This document shows, piece by piece, positions 17,024 through 48,254 of a stretch of 64,000 nt of DNA. The notes beneath the pieces are model-generated. The model worked only from the letters and a program-made list of their open reading frames with translations. It was not told where the DNA came from and ran no database searches. A program made the position numbers and the translations under genes. Positions within the stretch are counted from its first letter, which is position 1. Every line of letters starts with the position of its first letter. Source of the stretch: an uncultured Acidimicrobiales bacterium (GTDB lineage Bacteria > Actinomycetota > Acidimicrobiia > Acidimicrobiales > SZUA-35); assembly GCA_937922785.1 (NCBI GenBank), contig CALAJQ010000036.1, forward strand, positions 1 through 64,000, in the 5' to 3' direction.

Positions 17024-17510
17024 AGGTGTCCTCCTTAACGAGTGTTTTGCGTAGGAACGATCGAGCTTGAGCGGTTGCGGACTTCACGGTTCCTTCAGCG
17101 CAGCCCAGAGCTTGGGCAGTTTCGGCCACGCTTAGCCCGGCGTAGTAGCGCAGGATCACGGCCGCCCGCTGCTTTTCGGGGAGCTGATCTAGCAGGCTGA
17201 GTGCCTCAACCGGATACTCCGAGGTTTGGGTCAATCGGGTTTGCTGAGCTATGAAACCGCGATTGCGTTGCTTAGTGCGAAGCCTTCGCCACCACGAGAT
17301 TTGGGTGTTGATGGCAACGGTGACCAGCCAACCCCAACCCGACTGAAGCGAACGAACATGGTCCCAGTTCTGCATCAGCTTCAAGACTGAGTCTTGGGCG
17401 AGATCTTCGGCTAAGTCTCGATCACCGGTTCTCAGCTCCAGAAAACCGACAAGTCGGCTGTAGTGCTGCTGCACAAACTCTTCCAACTCGCCGTCGAATC
17501 CGATGTTCAC
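17013..17510 (-). CDS. ECF RNA polymerase sigma factor
   Basis: 165 residues, a normal ECF length. Region 2 is at the N-terminus (FVQQHYSRLVGFLEL, LAEDLAQDSVLKLM, WGWLVTVAINTQISWWRR) and region 4 at the C-terminus (LLDQLPEKQRAAVILRYYAGLSVAETA, GCAEGTVKSATAQARSFLRKTL), with a helix-turn-helix for the -35 element. The type resembles SigE-like Actinobacteria factors. Its stop codon lies inside the start of the membrane protein at 17023, so both products are made together. It is divergent from the gene at 17713. Confidence 0.9.
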   Translation of the reverse strand: MNIGFDGELEEFVQQHYSRLVGFLELRTGDRDLAEDLAQDSVLKLMQNWDHVRSLQSGWGWLVTVAINTQISWWRRLRTKQRNRGFIAQQTRLTQTSEYPVEALSLLDQLPEKQRAAVILRYYAGLSVAETAQALGCAEGTVKSATAQARSFLRKTLVKEDTYVS

Positions 17511-19345: not shown

Positions 19346-22300
19346 TTGTTTGACACCGGGGTTTCAGTCAACGTGCGAGTTGACGTGCTTGGACCGTTCA
19401 GACTGATCATTGACGGCGTCGAAGTTGCGGTGTCTCGTCCGCAGGTTCGCACGGTAATGGCCTACCTAGCGTCGGTGCAGGATTCGGTTTCAACCGGCGT
19501 CCTGGTTGAGGCCTTGTGGCCCAACGCCATCCCTGCTGACCCCGCCGCCGCACTTCGAACGGTCTTGTCTCGAACCCGTTCGGCCCTGGGCGTCTACTCA
19601 GACCGGCTTGAGGGAACTGGTGACAGCTACTTCTTGGCTGTCGATTCGGACTGGGCGGAAATGTCTCGACTTCGGGAACGGGCCAAAGGCGGCCGCCGGG
19701 CCGAAGACCTACCAGTTCTGGAGCAGGCCCATCAGTTGTGGCGCGGCGAGCCCTTCAGCGGAGCAATTGACTCGCCCGAGATGGACACAAGGCGCGCAGT
19801 TGCTGGACAGTCGTTAGCGTCGGTTCGCCGCACGCTGCTTGGTGCTTATGCCATCGCCGAGCGATACACCGAGGCAGTTGAACTAGGTGTTGAGGTTCTG
19901 AAAGACACACCAGAAGATGAGCACATCGCCTGTGTGGTGGCCCGCTCCCTAGCCCTAAGCGGTCGAAAAACTCAAGGCATCAAGGTGCTCGAGCAGACCA
20001 GATTGGAGCTTCGGGAAAGAGGACTTGACGTCTCACCAGCGCTGGCCCAGACCGAAAGCGAGATCCTCCAAGGCGCAACTGACCTAGCACTGGAGGAAAG
20101 GCACGCCGGATCGCCACCCGGATCCGGCCACTTCGTCGGGCGCGAAGCTGAGTTAGCAAAACTTGTTCACCTGCCACCTAAGTCAACCGTGCTGGTTGAG
20201 GGGGAGACGGGTATTGGGAAAACCTCGTTGCTAGGCCGTTACCAGGCTGTGCTGGCTGACCAAGGAGTTCCCGTCGTAACCGCCACAGCTTCGGCCAGCG
20301 CAGGAGCTCCCATGCAAGTGTTTCGAGAACTGGCCAGTGCCTTTATAGATATGGACGCAGACCTAGCGGAGGAACAGCGGGGCCCGCTTTCGATGTTGTT
20401 GCCTGAACGGGTGAAGGGCGACAACCGTCCCTCCACTCGAGAATCACTAGTGGCAGGCACCGTCAATTTCATTGCCGCTCGGGCCGAGAGCGTTGATGCG
20501 GTGGTCATCGTTGAGGACGCCCAGTGGCTGGACACAGCCTCGTCGCTGGCGTTGCGTCAACTAATCGAGTCGGATCGATGTCGGATCGTGCTGACGTCTA
20601 GGCCCGGTCACACAGAGCGGATTCTCGGGAACGCGAGAGACCGAGTGCAGATCGTAAGTCTTGGCCCCCTATCGCCCAGCGAGTGTGATTCGGTTGTGCT
20701 CAGCGCCTTGCCGACGGCATCGAGCGATCAGACCGCGCGCTACCACGAGCGGAGTGGCGGAAATCCTTTCTTCCTTCACATGCTTATTGATCTGGCCCAG
20801 CAAGAACTAGAGGTCGATGACGCGTTGCCGCCGGTAGTGCTTGTGGCTGTGCAACAGCGGCTTGAGGCGTTGAGCCGTGATGCCCGCCAAGTTCTTCAAG
20901 CCGCATCGGTGGTGGGTTTGGAGTTCAGCGCTTCAGTTCTTGACGAGCTTGACCATCGGGCCGAGGCCGGCCTGAGGGAGGCTAAAGGAGCGGGCCTTGT
21001 GCACGAGACCGGTGAGGTTGGCGTGGTCACATTTAGGCACGCCATTGTTGCCGATGCCGCTTACCAGTTGTTAGGCGAAGGCGACCGTGTTGCTCTTCAT
21101 GACCAGGTGGGCCGCGTTCTTGAAGCCTTCGGTGAAGAACCCATGACTGTGTGGCCTCACTGTCGGCAGGCGTCGTCGCTTGATGCCTGGCGGGCGATCG
21201 AGTTTGCCGGAAGGTCAGCGAACCAACACCTTGATGCTTATGACTGGGACGGAGCGCTGGAGGCTGCGTCGTGGGGGCTGGACTACCACGCAAGTTTTGA
21301 TGCTGACGACTTCGGTTCGCCCCACAAACTGGTGGTAGCCAAAGCCCGCGCCCAGCTGGCGCTTGGTATTCCGAACAGTCATCTCTTGCTGATCGACGGC
21401 GCTTGTCGGGCTCGCAAACACGGCGATGATGACACGCTAATTACGTCGGTTATCGAACTCTGCAACAGCGGATCCGTCGCCCTGACTGGTATCGAAATGG
21501 CACCGGTGAAGGAGCTGATCGAGGCGGCGCTTGCCAGCAATGTGGAGGACAGCCGCCTTCTTGAAGTGAAGGCCGCCGCGGCCCGAGCCTTTGTGTATTC
21601 CGAACACGGTGAGTATGGCCAGCGGCTTTATGCCGAAGCGTTCGCCAAGTTCGACCAGTGTGACCGTCGGGTTCAGGAACTGATCTTGCGTAACAGCGAG
21701 GCCGGTTTGTCGAACCCTGCCGACTTCGACCTGGCTCAAAGCGCCACCACTCGGCTTAGTAAAGCCGCCGACTTGAACCCTGAGCTGCGCTGGCTTGCCC
21801 GCTGGTTCCAGTTTCGAGATGCCTTGATCAACGCCGATGGTGACCGGCTGGCGTGGGGCCTTCGTGACCTCTGGGCGTTGTCGACCGGAGCCGAACGCAG
21901 GCACGCGTTCGTGGTGCTTGGTCAGACGTTCGATATGGATATGCAACGCTCGTGGGCGGCTGCAACTATGTCGCTAATTCACGAAGACTTCGACCTGGCC
22001 GAGGCGTGCGCCAACCAGGCGCTTGAAACCGGCATGAAGCAGCTGGCCATTCGTGACGATGGTTTCGGAGAGGGCTGGGTGACTGCCTCCTACGGTCTAC
22101 TGCTGCTGGCGATCCGTCACGGGCAAGGCCGGCTAGCGGAGTTGGTTGAGGTGGTGGAAACCGATGCGCCACTGGTTCCAGCCTGGAATGTTGCGATCGT
22201 CATCACAAACTTTGCTGCCGGCAACATGGACCGGGCCCGAGCGGAACTGGAGCCGTTGGTTGCCAACAACTTCGCCGCGCTAGTCCCGGACCCAACGTGG

Positions 22301-22582
22301 ACCGCCGCTACTTTCTTGCTGGCCGAACCAGTCATCGAACTGATGGACCTCACCGTGGTTGAACAGCTTTATCGGCTTGTCGAGCCTTACTCAGACCGGA
22401 TGAGCTACAGCGGTTTGTGTACGTTCGGGCCGATGTCGCAAGCTCTTGCGACGCTTGCTGACGCGCTCGGATGGCCCGACGTTGCTAGTAGACATCGCTC
22501 CGATGCAGGCCAAATGACCCAGAACCTGAGAGAACGTTCGCAGTGGGGTTTTGACGAGCTGCGCAACAATCACAAGCCCTAA
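19346..22582 (+). CDS. Large BTAD transcriptional regulator with AAA/STAND-type ATPase and TPR-like C-terminus
   Basis: 1078 residues from a TTG with AGGGGG about ten bases upstream. Domains in order: an OmpR-like winged helix (about 10-90, VDVLGPFRLIIDGVEV, VLVEALWPNA), BTAD (about 95-245, HQLWRGEPFSG), an ATPase starting with HFVGREAELAKL near 257, with Walker A GETGIGKT near 286 and Walker B VVIVEDAQWLD near 386, and then about 450 residues of helical repeats (EAASWGLDYHASFDADD). This is the AfsR-like/LAL-like architecture without a LuxR C-terminus. It senses ATP-driven oligomerisation and activates nearby genes. It lies 145 bases upstream of the surface-protein operon at 22728, its likely target. 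Confidence 0.9.
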   Translation: MFDTGVSVNVRVDVLGPFRLIIDGVEVAVSRPQVRTVMAYLASVQDSVSTGVLVEALWPNAIPADPAAALRTVLSRTRSALGVYSDRLEGTGDSYFLAVDSDWAEMSRLRERAKGGRRAEDLPVLEQAHQLWRGEPFSGAIDSPEMDTRRAVAGQSLASVRRTLLGAYAIAERYTEAVELGVEVLKDTPEDEHIACVVARSLALSGRKTQGIKVLEQTRLELRERGLDVSPALAQTESEILQGATDLALEERHAGSPPGSGHFVGREAELAKLVHLPPKSTVLVEGETGIGKTSLLGRYQAVLADQGVPVVTATASASAGAPMQVFRELASAFIDMDADLAEEQRGPLSMLLPERVKGDNRPSTRESLVAGTVNFIAARAESVDAVVIVEDAQWLDTASSLALRQLIESDRCRIVLTSRPGHTERILGNARDRVQIVSLGPLSPSECDSVVLSALPTASSDQTARYHERSGGNPFFLHMLIDLAQQELEVDDALPPVVLVAVQQRLEALSRDARQVLQAASVVGLEFSASVLDELDHRAEAGLREAKGAGLVHETGEVGVVTFRHAIVADAAYQLLGEGDRVALHDQVGRVLEAFGEEPMTVWPHCRQASSLDAWRAIEFAGRSANQHLDAYDWDGALEAASWGLDYHASFDADDFGSPHKLVVAKARAQLALGIPNSHLLLIDGACRARKHGDDDTLITSVIELCNSGSVALTGIEMAPVKELIEAALASNVEDSRLLEVKAAAARAFVYSEHGEYGQRLYAEAFAKFDQCDRRVQELILRNSEAGLSNPADFDLAQSATTRLSKAADLNPELRWLARWFQFRDALINADGDRLAWGLRDLWALSTGAERRHAFVVLGQTFDMDMQRSWAAATMSLIHEDFDLAEACANQALETGMKQLAIRDDGFGEGWVTASYGLLLLAIRHGQGRLAELVEVVETDAPLVPAWNVAIVITNFAAGNMDRARAELEPLVANNFAALVPDPTWTAATFLLAEPVIELMDLTVVEQLYRLVEPYSDRMSYSGLCTFGPMSQALATLADALGWPDVASRHRSDAGQMTQNLRERSQWGFDELRNNHKP

Positions 22583-22727
22583 AAACCATATTGATATAGC
22601 TGCTCTACGGCCGCCGGAAACTCTTCGGAAACAGCCGAGGTTTACCGTCGTCGTTGACTGATGGCCGTACGTGTAGGCCTGTGTCATTGGCTTTGGCCAT
22701 TGAACATTCTTTTAGGAAAGAGCGGCA

Positions 22728-24458
22728 ATGTATCAACCCAAATGGCGACACCTCCGGCTGCAATTAGCGACGGCTGCGACCCTGGCGTGGGTCGTTGTTG
22801 GTCTTGGCGGTGCTCAGGCCGGAGCTTCGGATCTGCAGATCGACTCCGAGGTGGGTCAGCTTGTTGCCGAGTGCACAGCGAACGACGGAGTGTCGGTGTT
22901 CGGGCAGGTTTGGGACGACGCCGATGGCGATGAGCAACTTCTAAACGACGCGGGAATCGCCGGAGTTGAAGTGACGTTAGATCTGCCAAGCCTTGCCGCT
23001 ACCCAAACCGATGAACTTGGTTTCTGGGCCTACTGCATTACTGATTTCGAGCTCCTTCCCCTGACAACTCAGCTAACCGTCGCAATACCCGGGCAGCTCG
23101 AGCCCGTTACACCGGGCGTTGGTCCCGAAGACGAAGACTCCGACTTGGTGGACCGTCCAACTTCGGCAACTGCGGCAACCGTCGAGTTCCAACTGTTGAC
23201 CGAGTTTGAAGGCCGTGACCCTGAGACCGGTGAAGTTGTGGTGCCCCAATTTGAGGTTGACATCGAGCAGCGAACTCTGCGAATCGATTCTGGCTTTGGT
23301 CAACAGCGAGACTTCAACCCCTGTCCCGAATGGAGCGTCGACCTCGTCGATGCTGACCCCGAGGGTGACTGGGATAGCGACGGCATTGTCAACCGCCTTG
23401 ATTCTCTGCCTTGTGACCGGGGTATCGCCAACCCGTGTCCGGAGTGGTCAGATCAGTTGCGAGAGGTAGATCCGCTTGGTGACTGGGATGGCGATGGGAT
23501 TTCCAACATCGAAGACAATCAGCCGTGTGAAACCGAACGGCCTCCGCCCGCAAATCCGTGCGACTCTGGCAGTTCTGAGATTCCTCAGCTTGCAGCGCTT
23601 AGCCCGGCCGAAGACTGGGACAACGATGGGCTTGCCAACGGAAACGACCCGCTGCCTTGTGAAGCGGGAATCGGTAATCCGTGTCCGGACTGGAACGTGG
23701 GACTGCTTGAGTTCGAGCCCAACACCGATTGGGACGGCGACGGGGAACCCAACTCGCTAGACCCGCTTCCTTGTGATGTTGGAGTGCCCAGCCCATGCCC
23801 TGATGTCAACGATCTGTGGATCGAACAAGACCCTGGCGGTGACTGGGACGACGATGGGTTGTTTAACAGCGACGACCCAAACCCGTGCGTGCCAGTTCAG
23901 CCGAATCCTTGTCCGAACTGGACCGCAGATCTTGTTGAGAATGACCCCCTGGGGAACTGGGATGGTGACTCGATTCTTAACATCGAAGACGAGGCGCCGT
24001 GTGATGCTGTCGCTGCGCCAGATCCTTGCCCGAACTGGACAACACAGTTGGTTGACGAAGAGCCGTTGGCCGATTGGGACGAAGATGGCATTTACAACCT
24101 TGAAGACACCGAGCCTTGTGGTGTGAGACCTGGTCCGTGTGGGACCGAGGGCGCCGACGCTTGCCCGGATCCTTGTTTGGAACCGACTGCTGAACAGATT
24201 GAACTGGATCAGCTCGGTGACTGGGATGGCGACGGCGCATCAAATAGTGAGGATGAGGATCCTTGCGACCCAGCAGTCCCTGGGGAAAGCAGCAGCGGCG
24301 GCGGCTTTCCTTGGGGACCATGGGGCCCACTGGTAGCAGTGGCTGCGGTAGTAGGCGGGGGCGGTATCGCGTTGACCGGCCGAGGCGACGACGAGTTGCC
24401 CCAAGAGAAGAAAAAGAAGAAGCCCAAGGCGAAGATCACGGGCATCGACCTCTCATGA
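22728..24458 (+). CDS. Surface protein: SdrD-B-like domain plus eight Trp/Asp/Cys repeats, C-terminal anchor
   Basis: 576 residues, ATG after AGGAAAG. A signal peptide (basic, then LATAATLAWVVVGLGGAQAGA) is followed by an SdrD-B-like domain (about 50-170, SVFGQVWDDADGDEQLLNDAG, GIAGVEVTLDL). Then come eight repeats of about 38 residues, each NPCP-W-...-DWD-x-DG-x-x-N...-PC, resembling thrombospondin type 3 calcium-binding loops: DxDxDG acidic loops and one Cys pair per unit. A Gly/Ser/Pro stretch leads to a hydrophobic C-terminal helix (WGPLVAVAAVVGGGGIALT) and a Lys-rich tail (EKKKKKPKAK), i.e. a type I membrane topology or cell-wall tether. First gene of the operon ending at 32634. Confidence 0.85.
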   Translation: MYQPKWRHLRLQLATAATLAWVVVGLGGAQAGASDLQIDSEVGQLVAECTANDGVSVFGQVWDDADGDEQLLNDAGIAGVEVTLDLPSLAATQTDELGFWAYCITDFELLPLTTQLTVAIPGQLEPVTPGVGPEDEDSDLVDRPTSATAATVEFQLLTEFEGRDPETGEVVVPQFEVDIEQRTLRIDSGFGQQRDFNPCPEWSVDLVDADPEGDWDSDGIVNRLDSLPCDRGIANPCPEWSDQLREVDPLGDWDGDGISNIEDNQPCETERPPPANPCDSGSSEIPQLAALSPAEDWDNDGLANGNDPLPCEAGIGNPCPDWNVGLLEFEPNTDWDGDGEPNSLDPLPCDVGVPSPCPDVNDLWIEQDPGGDWDDDGLFNSDDPNPCVPVQPNPCPNWTADLVENDPLGNWDGDSILNIEDEAPCDAVAAPDPCPNWTTQLVDEEPLADWDEDGIYNLEDTEPCGVRPGPCGTEGADACPDPCLEPTAEQIELDQLGDWDGDGASNSEDEDPCDPAVPGESSSGGGFPWGPWGPLVAVAAVVGGGGIALTGRGDDELPQEKKKKKPKAKITGIDLS

Positions 24459-24485
24459 AGTTGCCCCACGAAGAAAGAGCATCAA

Positions 24486-25691
24486 ATGTCTGACAATCAA
24501 GAAACGAGCGTTGCGCTAGGCGGCTGCGACGAAGAGGGCAACCGCGTGTTGCGAATGGTGTCGGTACTCGAACCGTCTTCGCCGTCGGACAAGATCCAAT
24601 GGGTTCTGGACGGAGAACCGCTTGGCTCACCGATGTCGCCTGGCGAGCTGTCGGTGAAAGTACCCGGTGATGGGCAAGTCCATCTGCTGGAACTACGGGT
24701 GCTCTCGCCCTCAGGTGTGGATGGAGATAGGGCCGAGATCAAGTTTCCACTTTGCAGCAGTCAGGTTGTCGGCCATATTCGTTCGGTCGACTTCGCCGAG
24801 CGGCAAGACGACGGATCGATTCCTGTTCGCCTAATCTCCAAGGTCGAACCTGAGGGCACCGAGGCGACGGTGCAGTGGCACGTCGATGGCGAGCCTATCG
24901 AGGGACCTGTCTCGGCCGGGACCCTCACGACTTCTATCTCACTAGCAGGCGGCATACACAGCTTTGAGCTGAAGGTGATCGAACCCGAGGGTGCTAAAGG
25001 AGATATCGAAGAAGTAGAAGTCCCAGGTGTGCAGGTAAATGCGCGAATTGCTGTCGCCGAATTCTCGGAGGGTGACGAGATTCCCGAACCCCGCATGGCA
25101 GTCGCAATGGCTGACGGCGCGACGGCTGATCGAGTCCGAGCCGCCCAGGCGACGAGGGATCGGGCTGCATTAGTTGGCCGTAATGACGACGTGGCCGCCG
25201 AGGTGTCTAGACATGAGGCCGATGACCCAGCCGCTCTAGCTCAGCAAAAGCAAGATGCAGCGGAACCAGAACCAGACATCTTGATTGCAATTGATTCTGC
25301 GACCTTCCAGGGAAAGGGCACAACGGCATTTCTTCTGGCCGACAAGGTGAAGCTGGAGGTTGAGTCATCGGGTCGGACGGGGGATGCCCAATGGTCCCTC
25401 GATGGTGTCAATCTTGGTGGGCCAGTGAATACTCCTGGAGCCCACGTCTTCTCGATACCGGCCAATGGTAAGACGGCTGCAGAGCTAAAGGTTCGACTAC
25501 TCCCATCGCAGCACCAGCCTCCACAAGACCCCTCCAGTCCACAAATAAACGTGGCGAAGACAATTATCGATGTCCCGGGCACGCCCAGAGCGGACCAAGC
25601 GATATCTACCGATAGCGGGAGTTTCGTAAACGCACAGGCAGTCTTTGTTGGAGGCTGCATCTACTCAGGAGAGGCAATTGAACATGTCTAG
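24486..25691 (+). CDS. Unknown protein with three WxxDGxPxGxP modules
   Basis: 401 residues, 27 bases after the surface-protein gene. No signal peptide or membrane helix. Three modules of about 80 residues, starting near residues 10, 90 and 265, each contain the pattern QW-x-x-DG-x-P/N-x-G-x-P and end in hydrophobic strands (HLLELRVLSPSG, HSFELKVIEPEG, AAELKVRLLPS), which suggests an Ig-like or PKD-like beta sandwich. Between the second and third modules is an Ala/Asp/Arg-rich helical linker (ADRVRAAQATRDRAALVG). I know no family with this module. The stop overlaps the next gene start by 8 bases. Exported or cytoplasmic location is unresolved. Confidence 0.75.
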   Translation: MSDNQETSVALGGCDEEGNRVLRMVSVLEPSSPSDKIQWVLDGEPLGSPMSPGELSVKVPGDGQVHLLELRVLSPSGVDGDRAEIKFPLCSSQVVGHIRSVDFAERQDDGSIPVRLISKVEPEGTEATVQWHVDGEPIEGPVSAGTLTTSISLAGGIHSFELKVIEPEGAKGDIEEVEVPGVQVNARIAVAEFSEGDEIPEPRMAVAMADGATADRVRAAQATRDRAALVGRNDDVAAEVSRHEADDPAALAQQKQDAAEPEPDILIAIDSATFQGKGTTAFLLADKVKLEVESSGRTGDAQWSLDGVNLGGPVNTPGAHVFSIPANGKTAAELKVRLLPSQHQPPQDPSSPQINVAKTIIDVPGTPRADQAISTDSGSFVNAQAVFVGGCIYSGEAIEHV

Positions 25692-28044
25692 CAGTCAATC
25701 GAAAACAGCTGGCCCGACTCACAAAGTACGACTGACAGCGGATGGCGTTAACGCCACGAAGGGCCAGTGGCACATGGACGGTGTACCACTCGGTTCGCCG
25801 GTTGGCCCACCGTTCACCCTGGAGACAGTTGTCCCATCCGACGGTAAGAAGCACAGCTTTGCCATTGCCCCGGTTAACGGAATGCAGATGGCCGCCAATG
25901 CCAATAGTCGAGTGTTTCTCGGCGATGAGGCGGCGACGGTGCGCGCTCTGGCGCCGATTTGTGGACTAAGTGATGGGAGAGGCGAAGTGTTGGCTCGCCA
26001 CACTGTTGGTGGCTGCAATGGCAAGGATGCCTTAAGTCAGGGCGACCACAACTTCCGAACCGTCACTCTGGAGTGTGATGCGAATCTTCCTGGCGGTGTG
26101 TTCGTCGAGTGGTTTCGAGATGGAACGTCGATAGCAATCGCAAGGAGCGACGGGCCGCCAGTTATCGACGACAGTTGTCCCATAGGCCCGACAGCTCGAA
26201 CAGTAACTTACGGCTTGGTTAATCACGGGCCGATCAGCGCACCGCCGGTCGGCAACGGCGGGCAGCAATCGGTCGCAACTCCAAAGTACGACGACGAGGT
26301 TTCATTACAGATTGAGCCCTGCACCCTCGAGATCGTCGTGAAGAACCACGCTTTCAAATCTTGCGGATTCGACTCGAAGGCGACACATGAGTTTGAGTTG
26401 GCGGTCGCCGGCGATCACCCGACATGCTCTGTGAATTGTGACAGAACAGACGTCGAGTGGGTCGGCTCTGCGGTAGCACCTGGAACGGTCGAACTAAGGA
26501 TCCCCGGAGTTCAGGTCCACGAAAAGGTTGGGTTTAGTGCTCTTGCCTCGCCAGGGATCTACAAGCCCAGCTCAGTCTTCAAGTTCAAGAGTGAGATTTG
26601 CGGTGCCTGGCCCACTGCTACTGACGCCACAAAATCGGCACCTGCCAAGGGCTGTTTGAGTCATACCTCGACAGTCGGTGATCTAAAGACCAGCAATTAT
26701 CAGGACTTTTCGGACTATGTCTACGCACAAAAGTCGGGCCCGCTCGTCAAGGTATCGAACCCATTCATCGTGAACACGGTACCTAAGCGTGTGACCGCCG
26801 CACCAAGGCATCCTCTCCGAGTAAAGCCGGGCAATCTGGACATAGCAGCTTTGCGTCAGCGCCTCGACGACCGCAAGTTCTGGGAGGGATTGCTAGATCC
26901 CGCATTGCATCCCAAGCCCGCGGGCTCCTACGGCCAAAATCTCTACTTCACAAATGGCGTATTCACCTCTTACGAGCTCGCCAAGAAGATAGCTGCATTG
27001 GTAGGTGAGTTCTACAAATCGCCATGCCGACTTGTTTACAACGAGCTGGAGATGCCAGCCAAGGTAACTGATCTAATGCAGGTGGCTGATTCGATCGATT
27101 TTGGCGATCTCATGCCGTTTGCCAATTTCCAACCCAAGGACCTGGTGCCCAACGGCAGTGCGTTCAAAAAACTTGCGGGCGATGTGCAGGAGCTGTCCCG
27201 ACTTCTCAAAGCGGTAAAGGACCTGGTCCAATGGACGAAGTCTGGGGCCGTCAAATGGATCAACGACGAGAGTGAAGCGGCCGAGACTGCTTGGGACTAC
27301 GCCTGGACTCTGAACGGACCAGGTACTCCTAACCACCCCGGGCCACTTTATGATCGGCCGTTAGGTAAGACCGATAACGGCGCAGTCGAAGCGTTGGCTT
27401 ACGTGGCCATTCTATATCTCGCTTGGCAGGACGATAGTGAAGTCGGAATCGTCGGCACCTCTCACGGGAGCCTTGTAACCGCTAAGGCCACAATGGCATT
27501 TGGCTACGCGTTCCCGATGGCGATTCCGTGGATGCAGCGCAAAGTTCGGATGGCGCACGCAGGATGTGTCGTGCACCGCAGCCGGCTTCCGCTACTCACT
27601 GAGCTTCTAAATAATTATGATGCTCACGCCGATGTGACGGACCCTTTCGCCACGGTCTTCGGTGGCCATGATCGTAAAAAGCTGGAGTCCTACTACGACT
27701 TCAAGTTCAAAGGGGGCGAAGCGCCAGCGCTATCTCGGTTGAGAAGCCTTGACGATCCGTCCAGTCGCGCGAAGACCTCAGCGGAAGACATGCACAAGTG
27801 GTTTATGCGTGGCTGGTTGCCGTTCATGGCTTCCCCGGTAGCGCCGCTTGATGCAATAGTCGCAAGCCATAACCCGCTGGTCGGTTGGAACAAAGAAACG
27901 CGCGACGAGCTCAAAGCGGGACTAGCCAAATTCAAAACCTACGGACCGATTGTCGGTCTGAGTCACTACCACTCAATAGAGAAGAACTACTTCCTTCTAA
28001 AGGGATCTGACCGGCATTTCTCCAACAAGAACTTTTTCCGGTAG
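25684..28044 (+). CDS. Putative alpha/beta-hydrolase with an N-terminal WxxDGxPxGxP module
   Basis: ATG 25684 overlaps the previous stop, so the two genes are coupled; 786 residues. Residues about 15-80 are one more copy of the WxxDGxPxGxP module (GQWHMDGVPLGSP). Residues about 110-330 are a Cys-rich beta region (CTLEIVVKNHAFKSCGF, CSVNCDRTDVEW). The C-terminal 450 residues hold a hydrolase-like GTSHGSL elbow (Ser593), a DPFATVF acid candidate near residue 652, and LSHYHSIEKNY with histidines near 761-763, giving a plausible Ser-Asp-His triad. Length, fold and neighbours suggest a surface or periplasm-facing esterase, but no signal peptide is visible. Assignment as a hydrolase is an inference from the elbow. 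Confidence 0.6.
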   Translation: MSSSQSKTAGPTHKVRLTADGVNATKGQWHMDGVPLGSPVGPPFTLETVVPSDGKKHSFAIAPVNGMQMAANANSRVFLGDEAATVRALAPICGLSDGRGEVLARHTVGGCNGKDALSQGDHNFRTVTLECDANLPGGVFVEWFRDGTSIAIARSDGPPVIDDSCPIGPTARTVTYGLVNHGPISAPPVGNGGQQSVATPKYDDEVSLQIEPCTLEIVVKNHAFKSCGFDSKATHEFELAVAGDHPTCSVNCDRTDVEWVGSAVAPGTVELRIPGVQVHEKVGFSALASPGIYKPSSVFKFKSEICGAWPTATDATKSAPAKGCLSHTSTVGDLKTSNYQDFSDYVYAQKSGPLVKVSNPFIVNTVPKRVTAAPRHPLRVKPGNLDIAALRQRLDDRKFWEGLLDPALHPKPAGSYGQNLYFTNGVFTSYELAKKIAALVGEFYKSPCRLVYNELEMPAKVTDLMQVADSIDFGDLMPFANFQPKDLVPNGSAFKKLAGDVQELSRLLKAVKDLVQWTKSGAVKWINDESEAAETAWDYAWTLNGPGTPNHPGPLYDRPLGKTDNGAVEALAYVAILYLAWQDDSEVGIVGTSHGSLVTAKATMAFGYAFPMAIPWMQRKVRMAHAGCVVHRSRLPLLTELLNNYDAHADVTDPFATVFGGHDRKKLESYYDFKFKGGEAPALSRLRSLDDPSSRAKTSAEDMHKWFMRGWLPFMASPVAPLDAIVASHNPLVGWNKETRDELKAGLAKFKTYGPIVGLSHYHSIEKNYFLLKGSDRHFSNKNFFR

Positions 28045-28141
28045 CCCATGGCTGAGTCGAGAATTGTGACGAGGTCGGGTAGCGCGAGATCGTCCAGATC
28101 GGTAAGCGGATGTCAGACACATTCGAAATGGAGCAACAACA

Positions 28142-29560
28142 ATGAGCGGTGAATTGAATTGGGAGTCGGCGTTTTCCGACGATTCTCTCGATGGTCTGAT
28201 TGATAAGGCTAGTGACGCAAAACGCCAGGCGGAGAGCCTCATCGACAAGGCATCAGAGGCCAAAGAAAAACTGAGCGACACCTTTGGTTCAAACGACGAG
28301 GCTGATACCAGCCGGAATCAGGTGAACGAGTCACACGAAGATGTGTCCGCAGCGACTCCGCCAGCCGTCACCCCCGAGCCGGCGGTTTCTGCATCTCCTG
28401 CGCCTCAGCCAGAACCTGCTCGGCGTTCGGTATCAGTCCAACCTCCGGCTACCGGTCATCAGGCGTCGCCATCTGAAGTCGTGTCCGGTGGGCCAACTCA
28501 AACCCCAATCCAAACCCCAGCGACCGCGCGGAACAACGACGATGGCGGGGGCCTACCAGTCCGCAAGATCGTGGGAGCGCTGGTCGCTGCTGTGCCGCTT
28601 TTGATTGCCGGGTTTGTGTTCTTACGCGACGGAGGCGACGTTACTGCAGCGGTCTGCGCCGAGGCAGAACAACGAATTGCTGAAAGCGAGGCCGGCAACA
28701 TGCTGGGTGACAGCGCAGACTCAGTCTTGCCGGACCGTTGCAAGAGCGACGAAGACGACGAGGGCACGACATCAACAACAACAGTCGACGAGGGAGATGA
28801 ATCGGACGACGGAGACGGCGACGGTGGCGTTACCGGATTGGCCTTCGCCTTCCCTGATAGCCAGACCGACGATGACCTCGACGGGGTCGCTGGATCGGGT
28901 TGCACTCCCGGCGACGGCCCGCTGCCGGATGGAGCTTGGTTCGGGTACGCAACCAACCTGACCGCCACCACTGTCGACTTCGATCTGGCTTGTGCGTGGA
29001 CAGGCCAGGCGGCAATCGACCAGGCCGCCACTCGTGGCCAGCAACTTGGTGCCGCAAGCATCTATGTCACTAACGACAACACCACGGGCCGCTCGTTGAC
29101 TGCGGGCACCGACGCTAAAGGTTGGCCGCTGGTTTCGGGCGCCAATCCGAACTCGATGTCTTATCCCAACTTTGCCAGCGTTCCCGCCGACAGCGGCCTA
29201 CCGCTACCTCTTCCAGTGTGGGTCTACATAAACAACGGAGAGCTAACTGAGATAGCCGTTGAAAACCCCAGCACCGTTCTGGCCGCCTCCACAACTCCGG
29301 TGTGGAACTGTGAGGAAGGAGACGGCCCGTTTGACGCAGTAGTTCAAGTGTTCGACATTCCCGCCAACGACCCCGACGGTGGCCTAAACATCCGACAGGC
29401 GCCTAACTCCGGCAGCGCCAAACTCGGCACCTATGGCAACGGCACCACGTTCAACCCGACAGGTGGTTGCGACAGAACCGCCAGCGGTTCGGTGTGGTGG
29501 GAAGTTACTGGACAGGGCATCACCGGTTGGGCCAACAGTCGATACCTCGACGGCCTCTAG
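28142..29560 (+). CDS. Single-pass membrane protein with C-terminal SH3b domain
   Basis: 472 residues from ATG 28142 with GGAG eight bases upstream. The N-terminus has two near-identical helical units (LIDKASDAKRQAES, LIDKASEAKEKLSD), then a Pro/Ala/Thr-rich disordered part (about 50-135), then one membrane helix (KIVGALVAAVPLLIAGFVFL, about 140-160). An acidic linker leads to a beta domain and finally an SH3b domain (last about 60 residues: DGGLNIRQAPNSGSAKLG, WWEVTGQGITGWANSRYL). SH3b domains bind cell-wall peptides or ligands, so this protein likely touches the envelope. It follows the hydrolase gene by 97 bases and sits in the same operon. Confidence 0.75.
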   Translation: MSGELNWESAFSDDSLDGLIDKASDAKRQAESLIDKASEAKEKLSDTFGSNDEADTSRNQVNESHEDVSAATPPAVTPEPAVSASPAPQPEPARRSVSVQPPATGHQASPSEVVSGGPTQTPIQTPATARNNDDGGGLPVRKIVGALVAAVPLLIAGFVFLRDGGDVTAAVCAEAEQRIAESEAGNMLGDSADSVLPDRCKSDEDDEGTTSTTTVDEGDESDDGDGDGGVTGLAFAFPDSQTDDDLDGVAGSGCTPGDGPLPDGAWFGYATNLTATTVDFDLACAWTGQAAIDQAATRGQQLGAASIYVTNDNTTGRSLTAGTDAKGWPLVSGANPNSMSYPNFASVPADSGLPLPLPVWVYINNGELTEIAVENPSTVLAASTTPVWNCEEGDGPFDAVVQVFDIPANDPDGGLNIRQAPNSGSAKLGTYGNGTTFNPTGGCDRTASGSVWWEVTGQGITGWANSRYLDGL

Positions 29561-29566
29561 ACAAAC

Positions 29567-29626
29567 CTGCACAGAGCCAAACCGCACAGAGCCAAACGGC
29601 ACAGAGCCAAGCCGCACAGAGAAAAC
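29567..29626 (+). repeat. Four tandem 15-bp repeats between SH3b genes
   Basis: Four direct copies of a 15-bp unit, consensus CCGCACAGAGCCAAA, occupy exactly 60 bases between the stop codon at 29560 and the start at 29666: CTGCACAGAGCCAAA, CCGCACAGAGCCAAA, CGGCACAGAGCCAAG, CCGCACAGAGAAAAC. The unit is a multiple of three. It could be a leader with a protein- or RNA-binding role, or a slipped-strand relic. Confidence 0.8.
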
Positions 29627-29665
29627 ACGCGCATCGAGAAACCGCAAGAAGACTGAAGAAGAACT

Positions 29666-30829
29666 ATGAACAACACCAATCAGAACAAGACCCGGCGCGG
29701 TCCGATACTGACCATCGCCTCGGCCATAGTCATGTTTGGGGCCGCATGCGGATCGACCAGCGCTACACCCGCAACAACGGTTGCTCAGACCTCGACGACG
29801 GCCCAAACCCCATCTACTTCATCATCGGTTGTTTCTTCAACGACCACTACTGCGCAGGCATCGACTTCTAGCTCCGCCACAAGTCCAACCACTGTGGCAA
29901 CAACAACTACCGCTCCAAACGCAACAGTTGTTGTCCCGGGTAACACCTCTTGTTCGGCAAGTGAACTTCCACCGCCAGGCAACCCGTTCTCGCCCGTCAT
30001 CGTGGCCGGGATCACCGCGGTTGATCCCGACAAGGGGCTCATAATCCGCTTCGATCCGACAACATCAAGCGGCGCACAATTCGCGCTGCCAAACGGCTCG
30101 GGCATGGGCACAACCGGACTGTGCGAGAAATCACCCGACGGAACAGTCTGGTGGGCGGTTGAAGATGGACATTGGGACGGATGGGCAAGTTCTCGATACT
30201 TGATCCCATACGTTGCTGGCACCTCAACTTGCCCCGCCGGGGTGTACAACCCGATTGGAAAGGGAACCGTCGACTCGATCCTGGGCGACTATGACGGCAA
30301 CGGCTCGGTCGATGCGCTCTTCCTCGCATATGACGGCATCGTTCAGCCACCAAACCAATGGACGGGATCCACCGCAACAGTACAAATACAGTTCGCTGAC
30401 GGAGGTCTGTCTACCGAACTCGACATCACCGCCAGCCTCGGCGATGGCGGACCCGGCCTCGGCATCTCGCAGATGCCTACCTTTCCGCAACGGGTTGACC
30501 CTGCCAACACTTTCCGCAGCGTTGCGGTGTTGGGGTCGACCTATGCAGGTTCGGCAACAGGCGCGGGCTTGTCTCACTTTGTCGGTGTGGATGGGTGTGA
30601 CCCCGTGATCCTTACTGAGATCCCAGTCACCCCATCGGTGGGAAATCCACAGCGACCATACCTGTGTGATATCGGTGGTGGCGGACGCACGCAGTTGTAC
30701 GCACTAGATGGCTTGAACCAGAGCTTTGACTTCCTGGTGACTGAGTACGACTTCCAGGGGTCAGCGTTTGTGCCGAAACCGCAGGCGACGGCTGGCAACG
30801 CAAGCACCGACCCCGACCCGACCTGCTAG
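29666..30829 (+). CDS. Lipoprotein with SH3b-like and VCBS-like domains
   Basis: 387 residues, with GAAGAAG upstream of ATG 29666. The N-terminus has a basic start, a hydrophobic segment and a lipobox-like FGAACG (Cys near residue 29), then a long Thr/Ser/Ala linker. Residues about 112-185 look like an SH3b domain (GLIIRFDPTTSSGAQF, WWAVEDGHWDGWASSRYL), strikingly similar in pattern to the end of the previous gene. A loop-rich segment (GDYDGNGSVDALFLAYDG, near residue 205) resembles a VCBS/FG-GAP calcium loop. The last about 150 residues are unassigned. Predicted surface lipoprotein; it is coupled to the next gene by a 2-base gap. Confidence 0.75.
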   Translation: MNNTNQNKTRRGPILTIASAIVMFGAACGSTSATPATTVAQTSTTAQTPSTSSSVVSSTTTTAQASTSSSATSPTTVATTTTAPNATVVVPGNTSCSASELPPPGNPFSPVIVAGITAVDPDKGLIIRFDPTTSSGAQFALPNGSGMGTTGLCEKSPDGTVWWAVEDGHWDGWASSRYLIPYVAGTSTCPAGVYNPIGKGTVDSILGDYDGNGSVDALFLAYDGIVQPPNQWTGSTATVQIQFADGGLSTELDITASLGDGGPGLGISQMPTFPQRVDPANTFRSVAVLGSTYAGSATGAGLSHFVGVDGCDPVILTEIPVTPSVGNPQRPYLCDIGGGGRTQLYALDGLNQSFDFLVTEYDFQGSAFVPKPQATAGNASTDPDPTC

Positions 30830-30831
30830 AT

Positions 30832-32634
30832 ATGCTCCGGACCGTCAGATGGGGGACCGTGCCCATTGGCCTCATGATGCTCTTTATGACGTGGATGGCC
30901 TGGAACCTCGACAACCTGGATGCCGGGGAACAAGTTGTTACCGGCACGGTTACTGAGGTTCGGTTGAACGTGCCGACCGTCGCTTACAGCGATCTGTCGG
31001 GCCAACCTCAAATTGTCTTTGGCGAGGTTGAGGACCGGCCAGCGCGCATCGGCACAACCCGTGAGGTCGTGCTGACAGTGGACGCCTCGGCCGAGCCGCG
31101 GCTGCGAAACACGAATCCACGATGGCTAGTGAACGCCTTTGGCCTGTTCGCCGTTCTGTTGGTAGCCGGCCCGTTCATACAGTTGGCGTGGCGCCTGCTG
31201 TTAGGAGCCGGGGGAGTTGCCGCAGTTGCGGTCCTAGCGAAACGGTCGGTGCAAGCGTTCCCGAACAGCGGCCAACCTGGTTCAACCAATCGATCGGGCG
31301 GCGGCATAGTTGACGATGCCAAGGCGCTAGCTACCGCCGCCCGAGATGAATACTCCGACAGTCCGGCACTGAAGTCGGCAGGAAAAGAACTGGCAGGCAC
31401 CACCCTTATCGCCGAGGGCATCGTCGGAATCGACAACCCCTTTACTTCACGTAATCGCGGCGGAATCTACTCAACACTTGTTGGATTGCTGGCCGCAGTT
31501 GGCCTGATTCTCTATGCACCGATTGTTGGCTCGTTGGTTACCGGAGCCGCCGGGGACGTCAAGGTGGAGGCGGTCATTGTGGACAGCCACGAGGTCATCT
31601 CCGAGGACGACGACGGAGCGACGCAAGTCTTCTGGCAGCCGGTCTACGAATACGCGGATCCCGCAACGGGTAGTGTTTACACCTTCGAGAGCTCTAGCAG
31701 TCATAAGCAGCAGCCATCGCTGGGCCAGATAGAAACAGTGGCCTTTCCTGCCAACAATCCTGCGGCGGCAATTGTCGTTCAGCCATGGGGTCGGTGGATC
31801 CGCCCGGGAATCACCGCACTTGGACTAGCAATAGCGCTGGCATCACTGATTGCTTTGGCTATGCGGATCACCGCACTTGTGTTGGGCATCAAGCTTTTGC
31901 GCGCCGGAACAGCCGAGCGTCGCGAGCGTGGAGATCATCGGCCGACGCTCGCGGTTCTGCGCGACGCCGCCTCGGGCGTGATAGGCCGAACAGAGGCCCA
32001 GATGCCAGATGGTGCGAGAGGCACAGTGCTTAGTGCCCTGGTTGCAACCAGACGACAGGCGAAGGGCGACGATGTGATTCGTGCTGCTCGAGAAGTTGCG
32101 GGTGCAACAATTCTTGCTGACTCGCTCTTCGGGTTGGAGAAGCCATTCGATGGAGAGAACACCCGCCTCGGGATATTCGGGAACGCCCTGTTCGTCGTGA
32201 TGTTCGGAGCGCTTGTGTTCCTTGGGGGTTGGGTGGGCAACCAGCTGGGTTATGTAGGCGACCGGCAGGTGGCTTTGGGTGAGGTGACCGAGTTTGTTGA
32301 TGACCGGGCGGTTGTTGAGTACGTCGATCACCTGGGCGAGCGTCGGTCGATCGTTGAGTCAGACTCCGGTAGCAGAGCGGTTGGCAACAACGTGCGGGTC
32401 GTGTTTGACGAAGATGCCCCCGAGCTTGGTGTGGTCTCTCAGCGGGGGGCGGGTGCGATCCGCTGGCTCTTTATTGGTTCTGGAGTGCTTGGCATCCTGG
32501 GACTCTTGCCGACTGTGCTGATGCAGTTGGCGGGCGTCGCGGCCGGGCTTGGTCTTCTGGTTGGTTTTCGCCGTCGCCCAGCACGTCATGGTCCAGCGCA
32601 TTCTGGTCCAGCGCGTTCTGGCGCGGCGCGTTAG
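30832..32634 (+). CDS. Multi-pass membrane protein with repeated DUF3592 domains
   Basis: 600 residues starting 2 bases after the previous stop. Three DUF3592-like units are visible: near residues 35-105 (TGTVTEVRLNVPTVAYSDL), near 240-320 (VDSHEVISEDDDGATQVFWQPVYEY), and near 480-550 (GEVTEFVDDRAVVEYVDHLG). Each is flanked by membrane helices, about six or seven in total (LMMLFMTWMAW, LFAVLLVAGPFIQLAW, AIALASLIALAM, LFVVMFGALVFLGGW, WLFIGSGVLGILGLLP). The C-terminus ends in repeated GPAHSG/GPARSG. Similar eukaryote-like units occur in bacterial membrane proteins of unknown function. It ends the operon and overlaps the convergent HNH gene by 4 bases. Confidence 0.8.
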   Translation: MLRTVRWGTVPIGLMMLFMTWMAWNLDNLDAGEQVVTGTVTEVRLNVPTVAYSDLSGQPQIVFGEVEDRPARIGTTREVVLTVDASAEPRLRNTNPRWLVNAFGLFAVLLVAGPFIQLAWRLLLGAGGVAAVAVLAKRSVQAFPNSGQPGSTNRSGGGIVDDAKALATAARDEYSDSPALKSAGKELAGTTLIAEGIVGIDNPFTSRNRGGIYSTLVGLLAAVGLILYAPIVGSLVTGAAGDVKVEAVIVDSHEVISEDDDGATQVFWQPVYEYADPATGSVYTFESSSSHKQQPSLGQIETVAFPANNPAAAIVVQPWGRWIRPGITALGLAIALASLIALAMRITALVLGIKLLRAGTAERRERGDHRPTLAVLRDAASGVIGRTEAQMPDGARGTVLSALVATRRQAKGDDVIRAAREVAGATILADSLFGLEKPFDGENTRLGIFGNALFVVMFGALVFLGGWVGNQLGYVGDRQVALGEVTEFVDDRAVVEYVDHLGERRSIVESDSGSRAVGNNVRVVFDEDAPELGVVSQRGAGAIRWLFIGSGVLGILGLLPTVLMQLAGVAAGLGLLVGFRRRPARHGPAHSGPARSGAAR

Positions 32635-33983
32635 GACCCAGCCCGTCCGGACTTAGGACGTTTGGCGGCGATTTCGTCTGGGGATGCGGGCCGGGTTTTC
32701 CAGGCTCGCGTTGGCATAGCACTGCAACGCTTCGTGTCCGCGTCGGAGTCCGGGTCTTTACTGCTGGCTGATGGTGTAGGTCCGCGTCGGGGTGGGCCGT
32801 GGGTCCAGTAGAGGGTTTGGTTGTTGTCGTGCAGCTGTTGATGGCAGCTGCTGCACATCAAGGCCATCTCGTCGATGTTCGTCTTACCAGCTTTGGGGGA
32901 GTTGAACGGTGTTAGGTGGTGGGCCTGGCATCTCAAGGGATTGGCGCCGCATTGGACGCAGCCTTTGTCTCTGGCGATTAGCGCCCGGACTTGAGCCGGT
33001 GTTGCTAACCGTTTCTTGCGGCCGTGGAACAGGACTTCGCCTTCACCGTCAAAGACCGTTGCCAAGAATGTTGCCTTGCACGAGAGGCGTTCTAGTAGTT
33101 GGGCAGGTAGTCGCCGACCGTCAAGACTGAATGCCTTTGTTGGTCCGTCGTCGGTCCAATCGGATGCGTAACTGATCACGTGGAATGCAACATCACGAGA
33201 GCTAAAGGCAGAACAGGACGCAGAACTAGATCCATCGTCGGGGGCCGAAGCGCCGCCTCCGGACATCAACTCGGCGAAGGCATCGAACCGTCGCTGGTCA
33301 TAGGTGCGGGGGTGATCGGCAACCGACACATTGCGGCCGCCGTCGGCTTGGAACAACTCGTCGGCCTTGGCAACGAGCCAGTCCTCGATGAGGTGAATAG
33401 TCTCGGCGTCGCCTTCGGCCATGAGAGCTTCTGTGCCGCGGCGTGTAGTGAACCGGCTGACCTTGCGGAGGCGACGTTGGCGGTCATATCGAGCGTCGTG
33501 TTCGTCTTGGGCCTTCTGCTCGTCAACCCATTGCCGAGCAACTGCGTTGGCTTTGTCCGGACCGGCCGCTTTCACTTGCTCAAACAGTTCTTCCGACGTT
33601 GCGCCCGCTCCACCGGTTTCGCCTGAGGCATAGGCAATGGCGTCCAGCTCGCTTTCACCAATGTCACCCTCGGCCAAGGCGTCACCCAAGGAACGGTTTT
33701 GGGCAACGGCCGAGGCTCGTTTTGCCACGGCGGCTGCAACTCGCTTTGAAGCGCCGGTTGCCCGGGCGGCTGATTCGTTGTTGCGGTCGGAGTTTCCGGC
33801 AGCTTTCATGTCGGCCAAGACCTGGCACTCGAGGGCGCTCAGTCGGCGGCGATGACCTGCTAACAAACTGACCGTCGCACAGGTGGCGGGCGCGTTAGAT
33901 AGGTATTCCTCCAACCCGGCAAACATTGCGTCTGCGACCTCTGGTTCGAACCCCGCCTGGGACTTACCTGCCATAGACCCCAC
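32631..33983 (-). CDS. DUF222 / HNH endonuclease-domain protein
   Basis: 450 residues, ATG 33983 or the second ATG (33974). The N-terminal two thirds are DUF222-like helices (AMFAGLEEYLSN, ALECQVLADMKAAGN, AVAQNRSLGDALAEGDI). The HNH motif lies near residue 360: GCVQCGANPLRCQAHHLTPF, then LMCSSCHQQLHD. It is paralogous in architecture to the gene at 10869, with low overall similarity. Such proteins are multicopy in Actinobacteria. The HNH Cys pairs are intact, so it may be active. Tail-to-tail 4-base overlap with the DUF3592 gene. Confidence 0.88.
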   Translation of the reverse strand: MGSMAGKSQAGFEPEVADAMFAGLEEYLSNAPATCATVSLLAGHRRRLSALECQVLADMKAAGNSDRNNESAARATGASKRVAAAVAKRASAVAQNRSLGDALAEGDIGESELDAIAYASGETGGAGATSEELFEQVKAAGPDKANAVARQWVDEQKAQDEHDARYDRQRRLRKVSRFTTRRGTEALMAEGDAETIHLIEDWLVAKADELFQADGGRNVSVADHPRTYDQRRFDAFAELMSGGGASAPDDGSSSASCSAFSSRDVAFHVISYASDWTDDGPTKAFSLDGRRLPAQLLERLSCKATFLATVFDGEGEVLFHGRKKRLATPAQVRALIARDKGCVQCGANPLRCQAHHLTPFNSPKAGKTNIDEMALMCSSCHQQLHDNNQTLYWTHGPPRRGPTPSASSKDPDSDADTKRCSAMPTRAWKTRPASPDEIAAKRPKSGRAGS

Positions 33984-34203
33984 AATAACAAGGGCCTATG
34001 ACAGTGTTACACGATTGGCTAACTTGCGCGAATATCCGCGAAAACCGGCGCGGAAAACCGGCTTCAACAACCCTTTCTAATTGCCCACGCGTGAGAACCT
34101 CCGCGAGATTTCTTCAAGATTGTGTCCGATTCCTAACGAGCTGTTCGTCGTGCCATTAGAAAGCGGATCAGGTTGGTCCGCCTAGCCACAGGAGGAAATC
34201 GAA

Positions 34204-44263: not shown

Positions 44264-44725
44264 ATGAATAGGACCGAGGCAAACGACTTCGAGTTGTTCT
44301 TCAACTCGATCGAGCCCGGATTGCGCGCCGCGCTTGTCACCAAGTTCGGCCCCGATCGTGGGCGTGATGCTGCGGCTGAGGCTTTGGGTTATGGCTGGCG
44401 GAACTGGGATCGAGTTAGCACGCTCGAGAATCCGGCGGGCTACCTATATCGAGTTGGCGATCGGTGGGGACGACGGCAACAAACAAAGAAACCGGTGGCA
44501 TTCGAACCGCAGGAGATCGGAGGAAGCCCTCACATCGAGCCAGGTCTCGAGCCTGCTCTCGAATCGTTGACGCTTCGTCAACGTGAGGCGGTGGTGCTGG
44601 TTGCAGGTTTCGGTCTAACTCACAGGGAGGCGGCAGACCTTCTTGGGCTTCGTCGATCGTCAATTCAGAATCATCTCGAACGAGGCCTTACCAAGCTGCG
44701 TTCAGAACTCGGAGTACAAATATGA
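44264..44725 (+). CDS. ECF sigma factor
   Basis: 153 residues. Region 2 appears near residues 10-75 (FNSIEPGLRAALVTKFG, AAAEALGYGWRNWDRV, NPAGYLYRVGDRWGRR), and region 4 near 95-150 (ALESLTLRQREAVVLVAGFGLTHREAADLLG, RSSIQNHLERGLTKLRSEL), with the helix-turn-helix. The N-terminal part is short for ECF region 2 and lacks the usual aromatic DLxQE motif, so it is a divergent member. It ends with an ATGA overlap into the next gene, indicating coupled translation. Confidence 0.85.
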   Translation: MNRTEANDFELFFNSIEPGLRAALVTKFGPDRGRDAAAEALGYGWRNWDRVSTLENPAGYLYRVGDRWGRRQQTKKPVAFEPQEIGGSPHIEPGLEPALESLTLRQREAVVLVAGFGLTHREAADLLGLRRSSIQNHLERGLTKLRSELGVQI

Positions 44726-48149: not shown

Positions 48150-48254
48150 CCGAACCGGTTTGGATCTTGACCCCGCCGATAATTTGGCTTGTCGAAGAAC
48201 TAACTTTCTTGGCATGGCAGTTGACCCTCGTAAGCCCGTTAGAGAATCAGCTGC

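Follow-up and report, generated by a model that had tools for sequence, protein, structure and literature searches.

In the window, the whole stretch of 64,000 nucleotides that was analysed, a gene encoding a regulator of 1078 residues precedes six co-directional genes (g1-g6; Table 1), and the 145 bases from the end of the regulator gene to g1 contain a pair of heptamers predicted to be a SARP operator. By its sequence, this protein belongs to the large SARPs (AfsR-like) and carries a STAND-type ATPase, and the repeated word in the gap suggests that the regulator directly turns on g1-g6. The original prediction had placed a BTAD-ATPase regulator ahead of six genes on the + strand with gaps of 27, -8, 97, 105 and 2 bases, all of which was exact (g2 and g3 overlap by 8 bases), and its proposal that the regulator controls the cluster is supported by the operator-like repeat and its apparent recurrence at orthologous loci. 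All of the regulator and cluster ORFs had coding-like codon-position GC, while the RNA families and tRNAs searched gave zero matches in the window.

Table 1. Positions in the window of the regulator gene, the predicted operator and the six downstream genes
Feature	Position	Strand	Description
Regulator	19346..22582	+	1078 aa; large SARP / AfsR-like: BTAD-containing SARP part, AAA_16/STAND ATPase and a long C-terminal part
Predicted SARP operator	22615..22632	+	CGGAAAC-TCTT-CGGAAAC; heptamers 11 bp apart
g1	22728..24458	+	576 aa; predicted surface protein
g2	24486..25691	+	401 aa; Ig-like (BiPBP_C) repeats, without hydrophobic segment
g3	25684..28044	+	786 aa, ATG at 25684; N-terminal part weakly Ig-like; C-terminal half an orphan, carrying GTSHG
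g4	28142..29560	+	472 aa; single hydrophobic segment (137-165), C-terminal SH3b
g5	29666..30829	+	387 aa; lipoprotein-like (lipobox by eye), SH3b akin to that of g4
g6	30832..32634	+	600 aa; membrane protein with six hydrophobic segments and a DUF3592 part under the cut-off

The BTAD domain of the regulator (PF03704) scored 46.8 bits (cut-off 22.1) and its ATPase (AAA_16, PF13191) 54.7 bits (cut-off 32.6); the STAND/NOD residues G289, G291 and K292 were invariant across six members. With the window protein alone as query, residues 10-245 matched the SARP domain of AfsR (8hvr, 1.9e-12), and it is by this match that the N-terminal OmpR-type DNA-binding domain of large SARPs was recognised. Pfam Trans_reg_C gave no match in the window regulator up to E 1; it was above cut-off in the homologues L079, L081 and L188 and below it in L078, L083 and L187. 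The window regulator and five full-length homologues formed one clade (support 100/100), the profile of which matched 8k60 at 3e-38 and 8jke at 1.6e-37. According to passages of PMC10936776, AfsR of Streptomyces coelicolor likewise combines a SARP part with a STAND-type ATPase and serves antibiotic production, whereas the window regulator precedes envelope genes. The match of AfsR to the clade profile was confined to positions 5-355 of 1069, and the AfsR-type C-terminal TPR was not found by Pfam in the window protein (homologue L079 had sub-cut-off C-terminal TPR matches only).

The heptamer pair was the sole direct repeat of at least 7 in positions 22560-22740, and its word had no other exact copy in the available sequence of its genome. 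PMC10936776 describes SARP target sites as direct repeats with a period of either 11 or 22 bp, a pattern which the pair fits at the level of sequence. For large SARPs a -10 element would be expected 8 bp from the 3' repeat; in the window a TANNNT match (TACCGT) sits 10 bp past the 3' heptamer, not 8. The operators of PimR and other SARP-LAL regulators, in the relevant parts of PMC5930380 and PMC3367932, are also heptameric direct repeats with 4-bp spacers, but the PimR consensus is CGGCAAG rather than CGGAAAC, the main PimR operator has three copies rather than two, and the targets are unrelated.

Operator-like repeats were also found at orthologous regulator loci in other genomes. The only exact copy in genome G113 lies at the regulator locus, 36 bp before an ECF sigma-SH3b gene pair, and a copy with one mismatch precedes a sigma gene in G169, where the genome has two copies at that level (the gaps scanned and the start of the G169 sigma gene were the analyst's choice). 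Sites with 3 mismatches were present in G042, G061 and G203, for which 12, 20 and 35 of 1000 shuffles, respectively, were equally good, while in a further clade member, G002, the operator was absent (best 5 mismatches over three gaps). By sequence comparison the repeat appears to recur at the orthologous regulator loci of G113 and G169, and weakly at those of the three genomes with 3-mismatch sites. TANNNT was not found within 60 bp of the site in G113, G169, G061 or G203, and G042 had one, 48 bp from its site. Across 253 genomes the exact operator pattern occurred in 16 and its backward control in 3, which makes the word more frequent than random letters would be; 14 further genomes of the 253 had one exact copy each, in no case with a regulator-profile match within 1.5 kb on either side. 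When two mismatches were allowed, four of the seven clade genomes had more copies of the word than of the backward control, and the other three, including G000, had fewer.

A promoter scan identified no sigma-70-like promoter on the + strand within the cluster, a result which says little here because the regulator-g1 gap was also without a promoter-like site. A 15-bp tandem array in the interval separating g4 from g5 was considered as an operator and rejected; outside it there was a single match, with 3 mismatches, which is at chance level.

A patatin-like gene adjoins the regulator in all six other clade loci (five with full-length homologues and a sixth with a short form), two of which were found independently, via the patatin-like gene alone. 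GDPD is fused or adjacent in five of the six, and a CHAT protein with a sigma-like region occurs in two clade loci. Neither the patatin-like gene nor the CHAT protein had a match in the 64 kb of the window, and the regulators next outside the clade (G040, G043) were without a patatin-like match in their genomes or 20-kb stretches. The regulator-patatin pairs are tail to tail in five of six orthologous loci, so a co-directional target is not the rule of the clade. An SH3b-type protein is encoded in the operator-led operon of both the window and G113; that of G113 scored 21.6 bits, under the Pfam cut-off of 27, and matched g5 at 5.5e-6. The ECF sigma pair of the window at 15485-17510 was rejected as a part of the system, because its sigma was no closer to that of G113 than was the sigma at 47604.

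The ECF sigma and peptidase-type (CHAT) partners in G042 and G169 resemble those of the caspase-domain/TRADD-N neighbourhoods treated in parts of PMC8195603, from which the window differs in having neither a CHAT nor a patatin-like gene; the terms 'BTAD', 'patatin' and 'SARP' are absent from the main text of that paper, as are 'BTAD', 'patatin', 'CHAT', 'SARP' and 'sigma factor' from the main text of PMC7159879. Among the literature matches listed, none dealt with patatin-like genes next to BTAD or SARP regulators, and none with DUF3592.

The predicted features of g1-g6 held in part. In g1, eight DxDxDG-type repeats, a hydrophobic segment (532-551), a Lys-rich tail and, by eye, a signal peptide were present, while the proposed SdrD_B likeness stayed under its cut-off (20.2 bits, cut-off 29.7). 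The module said to be shared by g2 and g3 is indeed common to both (g3 as query found g2 at 6.9e-9, and g2 found g3 at about 0.001) but is not novel, being the Ig-like BiPBP_C domain (PF06832; 33.1 bits in g2, cut-off 26.8, and a sub-cut-off 12.5 bits, E 0.14, in the N-terminal part of g3). An SH3b domain was confirmed in g4 (SH3_3, PF08239; 35.4 bits, cut-off 27), and that of g5, although below cut-off (10.5), is akin to it (42%, E 4e-9). The g6 protein is a membrane protein as proposed, with weak internal repetition and, in place of several DUF3592 domains, one match to this family (PF12158) of 19.5 bits (cut-off 25.3). The enzymatic payload stays putative: the proposed hydrolase elbow of g3 corresponds to GTSHG at 591-595 (a second GxSxG, GLSDG, is at 94), no hydrolase family was detected, and the C-terminal half had no Pfam match up to E 10. 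AlphaFold models made without alignment were unusable for this half (pLDDT 34) and for g2 (pLDDT 40); a PDB sequence search gave weak matches for g2 and g3, mostly to Ig-domain chains, and none for g1, g6 or the patatin-like profile. Hydrophobic segments agree with the envelope location proposed for g1, g4, g5 and g6, while g2 has no such segment.

The idea of a recurring six-gene system failed its co-conservation test in the genomes searched (g5 was not queried alone). Relatives were absent for g3 from 197 other genomes and for g2 from 147, only partial relatives of g1 and g6 were seen in the other genomes searched, and BiPBP_C, SH3_3 and DUF3592 were not found together in one operon of those genomes. 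A phage or plasmid origin was rejected, since none of g1-g6 matched PHROGs up to 0.1, g3 had no relatives in phages or plasmids, and close-relative scans of viral contigs gave none for g3 or g2.

It is unlikely that control by the regulator is limited to its own gene or to some distant target, with g1-g6 an unrelated lineage-specific operon and the heptamer pair due to chance. Such a reading would account for six genes that are not conserved with the regulator, for the tail-to-tail pairs and for the missing site in G002, and shuffling the regulator-g1 gap 20000 times did give a perfect 7/11 repeat 111 times. It does not sit well with the recurrence of the 14 defined bases in G113, once and precisely at the regulator locus, or with the one-mismatch copy at the regulator locus of G169, nor with the finding of zero operators with at most one mismatch in 78 control loci (1.40 Mb) encoding regulator relatives, in just 27 of which the match covered the SARP part.

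Quite improbable, in our judgement, is a conflict or programmed-damage system with swappable effectors, in which a STAND switch would release a hydrolase (patatin-like/GDPD elsewhere, g3 here), aided elsewhere by ECF sigma and CHAT. The patatin-like gene beside every other clade member, GDPD in five loci and CHAT in two point in this direction, but for g3 no hydrolase family is detectable, nothing in the window matches the patatin-like or CHAT proteins, and the best PADLOC match was just mad8 (0.022), to the ATPase part of the regulator, with none for g1-g6 up to 0.1. That a single surface protein has decayed into g1-g3 is very improbable: by eye, g1 and g2 share a frame, with one stop plus nine codons between them, and the g1 tail resembles the first strand of the g2 repeats, yet all three genes are coding-like in composition, g1 has a hydrophobic segment followed by a Lys-rich tail at its end, and AGGAGAGG, ribosome-binding-type by eye, precedes the g3 start.

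The explanation favoured here, which as a whole we consider rather probable, combines a SARP-STAND switch, binding to the heptamer pair, one g1-g6 transcript and an envelope assembly. A signal on the C-terminal part of the regulator, plus ATP, would free the SARP domain; a SARP dimer is predicted to bind the pair at 22615-22632, and a single transcript would run from the operator, g1 through g6, both steps having support in the sequence. The products may form an envelope assembly for envelope remodelling or repair, with g1, g4 and g5 shown outside through Ca-binding-type repeats and SH3b domains, g6 in the membrane, and g2 and g3 inside the cell or exported. The regulator clade would be older than its targets, with the operator word standing before ECF sigma genes in G113 and G169 and, in weaker form, putatively before genes for CHAT-sigma in G042 and patatin-GDPD in G061; the window lineage, with no patatin-like partner there, would have a private operon in its stead. 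We interpret the six genes as a regulon specific to this lineage under a conserved switch, probably serving envelope remodelling.

It is possible, if doubtful, that this SARP-STAND clade of an actinobacterial order shares one operator word, YGGAAAC-N4-YGGAAAC, with exchangeable output modules, and represents a family, so far undescribed, of inducible systems for membrane remodelling or self-damage; its outputs would be patatin-like/GDPD proteins plus ECF sigma or CHAT-sigma elsewhere and a private Ig-like/SH3b/Ca-repeat envelope operon here. The predicted operator gives a direct and cheap handle for a binding test on six otherwise unplaceable genes. The large SARPs of the cited papers, in the parts that describe them, are activators of antibiotic clusters in Streptomyces; if the operator is real, large SARPs would extend beyond antibiotic clusters to envelope, lipase-like and sigma genes.

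The seven open reading frames of the locus (regulator and g1-g6) and every gap length in the original prediction were exact when re-read from the sequence, and codon positions were coding-like in all seven. The overlap of 4 bases between g6 and a convergent HNH-type gene forms a natural end of the unit. Among the domains proposed, the SH3b of g4 was recovered, while SdrD_B and DUF3592 were reduced to the matches tabulated, DUF3592 to one where several had been claimed. Signal peptide and lipobox were assigned by eye.

Features of the regulator locus and its surroundings in the window
Feature	Position	Strand	Description
Hydrolase-SARP-like fusion	6278-7852	+	524 aa; Hydrolase_4 alpha/beta hydrolase (49 bits) joined to BTAD region
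DUF4214 protein	9445-10710		Flanks cluster, one side
Sigma-like gene	15485-17510 (with long protein)
Regulator	19346-22582	+	1078 aa; matches BTAD and AAA_16
Predicted operator	22615-22632		CGGAAAC-N4-CGGAAAC; repeats 11 bp apart
g1	22728-24458	+	SdrD_B below cut-off; eight DxDxDG-type repeats; hydrophobic segment 532-551
g2	24486-25691	+	Ig-like BiPBP_C
g3	25684-28044	+	Weakly Ig-like BiPBP_C
g4	28142-29560	+	Single hydrophobic segment; SH3b
15-bp tandem array	29562-29621		g4-g5 gap
g5	29666-30829	+	Lipoprotein-like; SH3b related to that of g4
g6	30832-32634	+	Six hydrophobic segments; single DUF3592 match, below cut-off
15-bp tandem array	32576-32632		3' end of g6
DUF4214 protein	38926-40824		Flanks cluster, other side
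Sigma-like gene	44264-46239 (with long protein)
Sigma-like gene	47601-49907 (with long protein)

Relatives of g1-g4 and g6 were sought gene by gene in same-order genomes, with the window's own genome excluded from the counts. None was found for g3 (0/197) or g2 (0/147); g6 gave one weak 126-residue match in 147 genomes, in G006 among genes judged by eye to be of housekeeping type, and g1 three (3/147), through its repeats only, with no relatives of g2-g6 in the 7-20 kb around them. For g3, a pattern scan across 84,980 species, sensitive only to close relatives, was also empty. Relatives of g4 occurred in 34 of 147 genomes, mostly via SH3b or a middle domain, and the loci inspected for part of these (flanks of about 1.5 kb) held no relatives of g1, g2, g3 or g6. 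The genes are thus not co-conserved in the genomes searched, contrary to the recurring system proposed, and on this evidence the set is private to the window's lineage. In four family relatives (L035, L026, L033 and L039) a sigma-type gene directly precedes a protein of ~570-620 aa, SH3b-bearing as judged by its match to g4, a pair also seen in G113.

The regulator matched the AfsR SARP domain as a single query, and the profile of its clade matched AfsR structures. Full-length members numbered six in 397 genomes (1401-1562 bits; next best 461), with two candidates scored per genome and all six being rows of the profile; where a profile was made from the very proteins it scores, the values lack independence, the discovery of G169 and G203 being the exception. 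The window regulator and five others formed one group (support 100/100) in a tree of 19 regulators, which did not settle the branching order within it; a short form in G042 (317 aa), left out of the tree, was placed by its match. G113 is of the window's order by kinship code, its contig being identical to CALJDK010000063 (uncultured Acidimicrobiales bacterium). Several compared loci derive from incomplete genomes.

A homologous patatin-like gene directly adjoins the regulator in G113, G061, G002 and G042. Pfam Patatin stayed below cut-off wherever it matched; GGGxR-, SGGS- and DGG-type motifs in the alignment also underlie the name. The patatin-like profile matched in 29/397 genomes, six above 150 bits: its four sources and, newly, G169 and G203, each with the gene immediately next to a clade regulator. 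Regulator and patatin-like gene stand tail to tail in five loci and diverge in one (G061). Six loci from the 23 weaker genomes, which include the window's own, held no regulator match. A scan of genome contigs gave 80 loci, of which G113 and G002 were two; the remaining 78 controls, a mixed set (73 match the regulator profile, 27 across its SARP part), held no patatin-like match. A GDPD is encoded adjacently in G113 and G169 and occurs as a fusion in G061, in G203 and, judged by resemblance to the GDPD of G113, in G002. G113, G169 and G002 carry an ECF sigma gene in their loci, and single proteins with a CHAT domain then a sigma-like region lie beside clade regulators in G169 (L187:10766-12016) and G042 (L083:10062-11183). 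The window lacks a patatin-like gene of the clade type, and elsewhere in its genome a different contig gives no more than a weak match. The window's three sigma-like genes, of which Pfam confirmed one and resemblance to the sigma of G113 the other two, each overlap or adjoin a long protein, two of which match BNR or Kelch.

SARP-type direct repeats were searched for in four gaps. The 145-bp regulator-g1 gap held one, the heptamer pair, whose geometry is that of the PimR and AfsR sites. A perfect 7/11 repeat arose in 111/20000 shuffles of this gap, and such repeats have 17 start positions, some overlapping, across the window. In G113 the exact pattern lies 36 bp before the sigma-SH3b pair on the same strand, and G169 has a one-mismatch copy before its sigma gene (start set by the analyst at L187:5379). 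The window's genome and G113 have one exact copy each, both at the regulator; 16/253 genomes have one exact copy (backward control 3/253), and the other 14 gave no regulator-profile match in the 3-kb locus around it. Allowing ≤2 mismatches, among the matches listed, counts exceeded the backward control in G061, G113, G169 and G002 and fell below it in the window's genome, G042 and G203. Shuffled gaps scored as well, per 1000, in 0 cases for G113 and G169, 12 for G042, 20 for G061 and 35 for G203, the gaps having been chosen by the analyst; G002 had no site (best candidate, 5 mismatches), and the 78 control loci (1.40 Mb) no match with ≤1 mismatch.

An attractive rival reading is that g3 carries an enzyme replacing the patatin-like one. 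The GTSHG elbow behind the predicted enzymatic payload is present, followed by Asp and His contexts plausible by eye; a GxSxG motif by itself is a weak indication of a hydrolase, however, no family matched and the structure model failed, so this reading stays a rival. By sequence, the regulator is of the SARP-STAND type, an operator-like site separates it from g1, and g1-g6 are close and co-directional. A promoter scan of 22400-34100 is neutral here, since it returned no + strand site anywhere, that gap included. It seems fairly probable, with confidence slightly lowered because the control loci proved mixed, that a SARP dimer at the heptamer pair starts one g1-g6 transcript: the SARP domain would be released in dependence on ATP and a signal, the transcript would be activated, and its products may build an envelope assembly.
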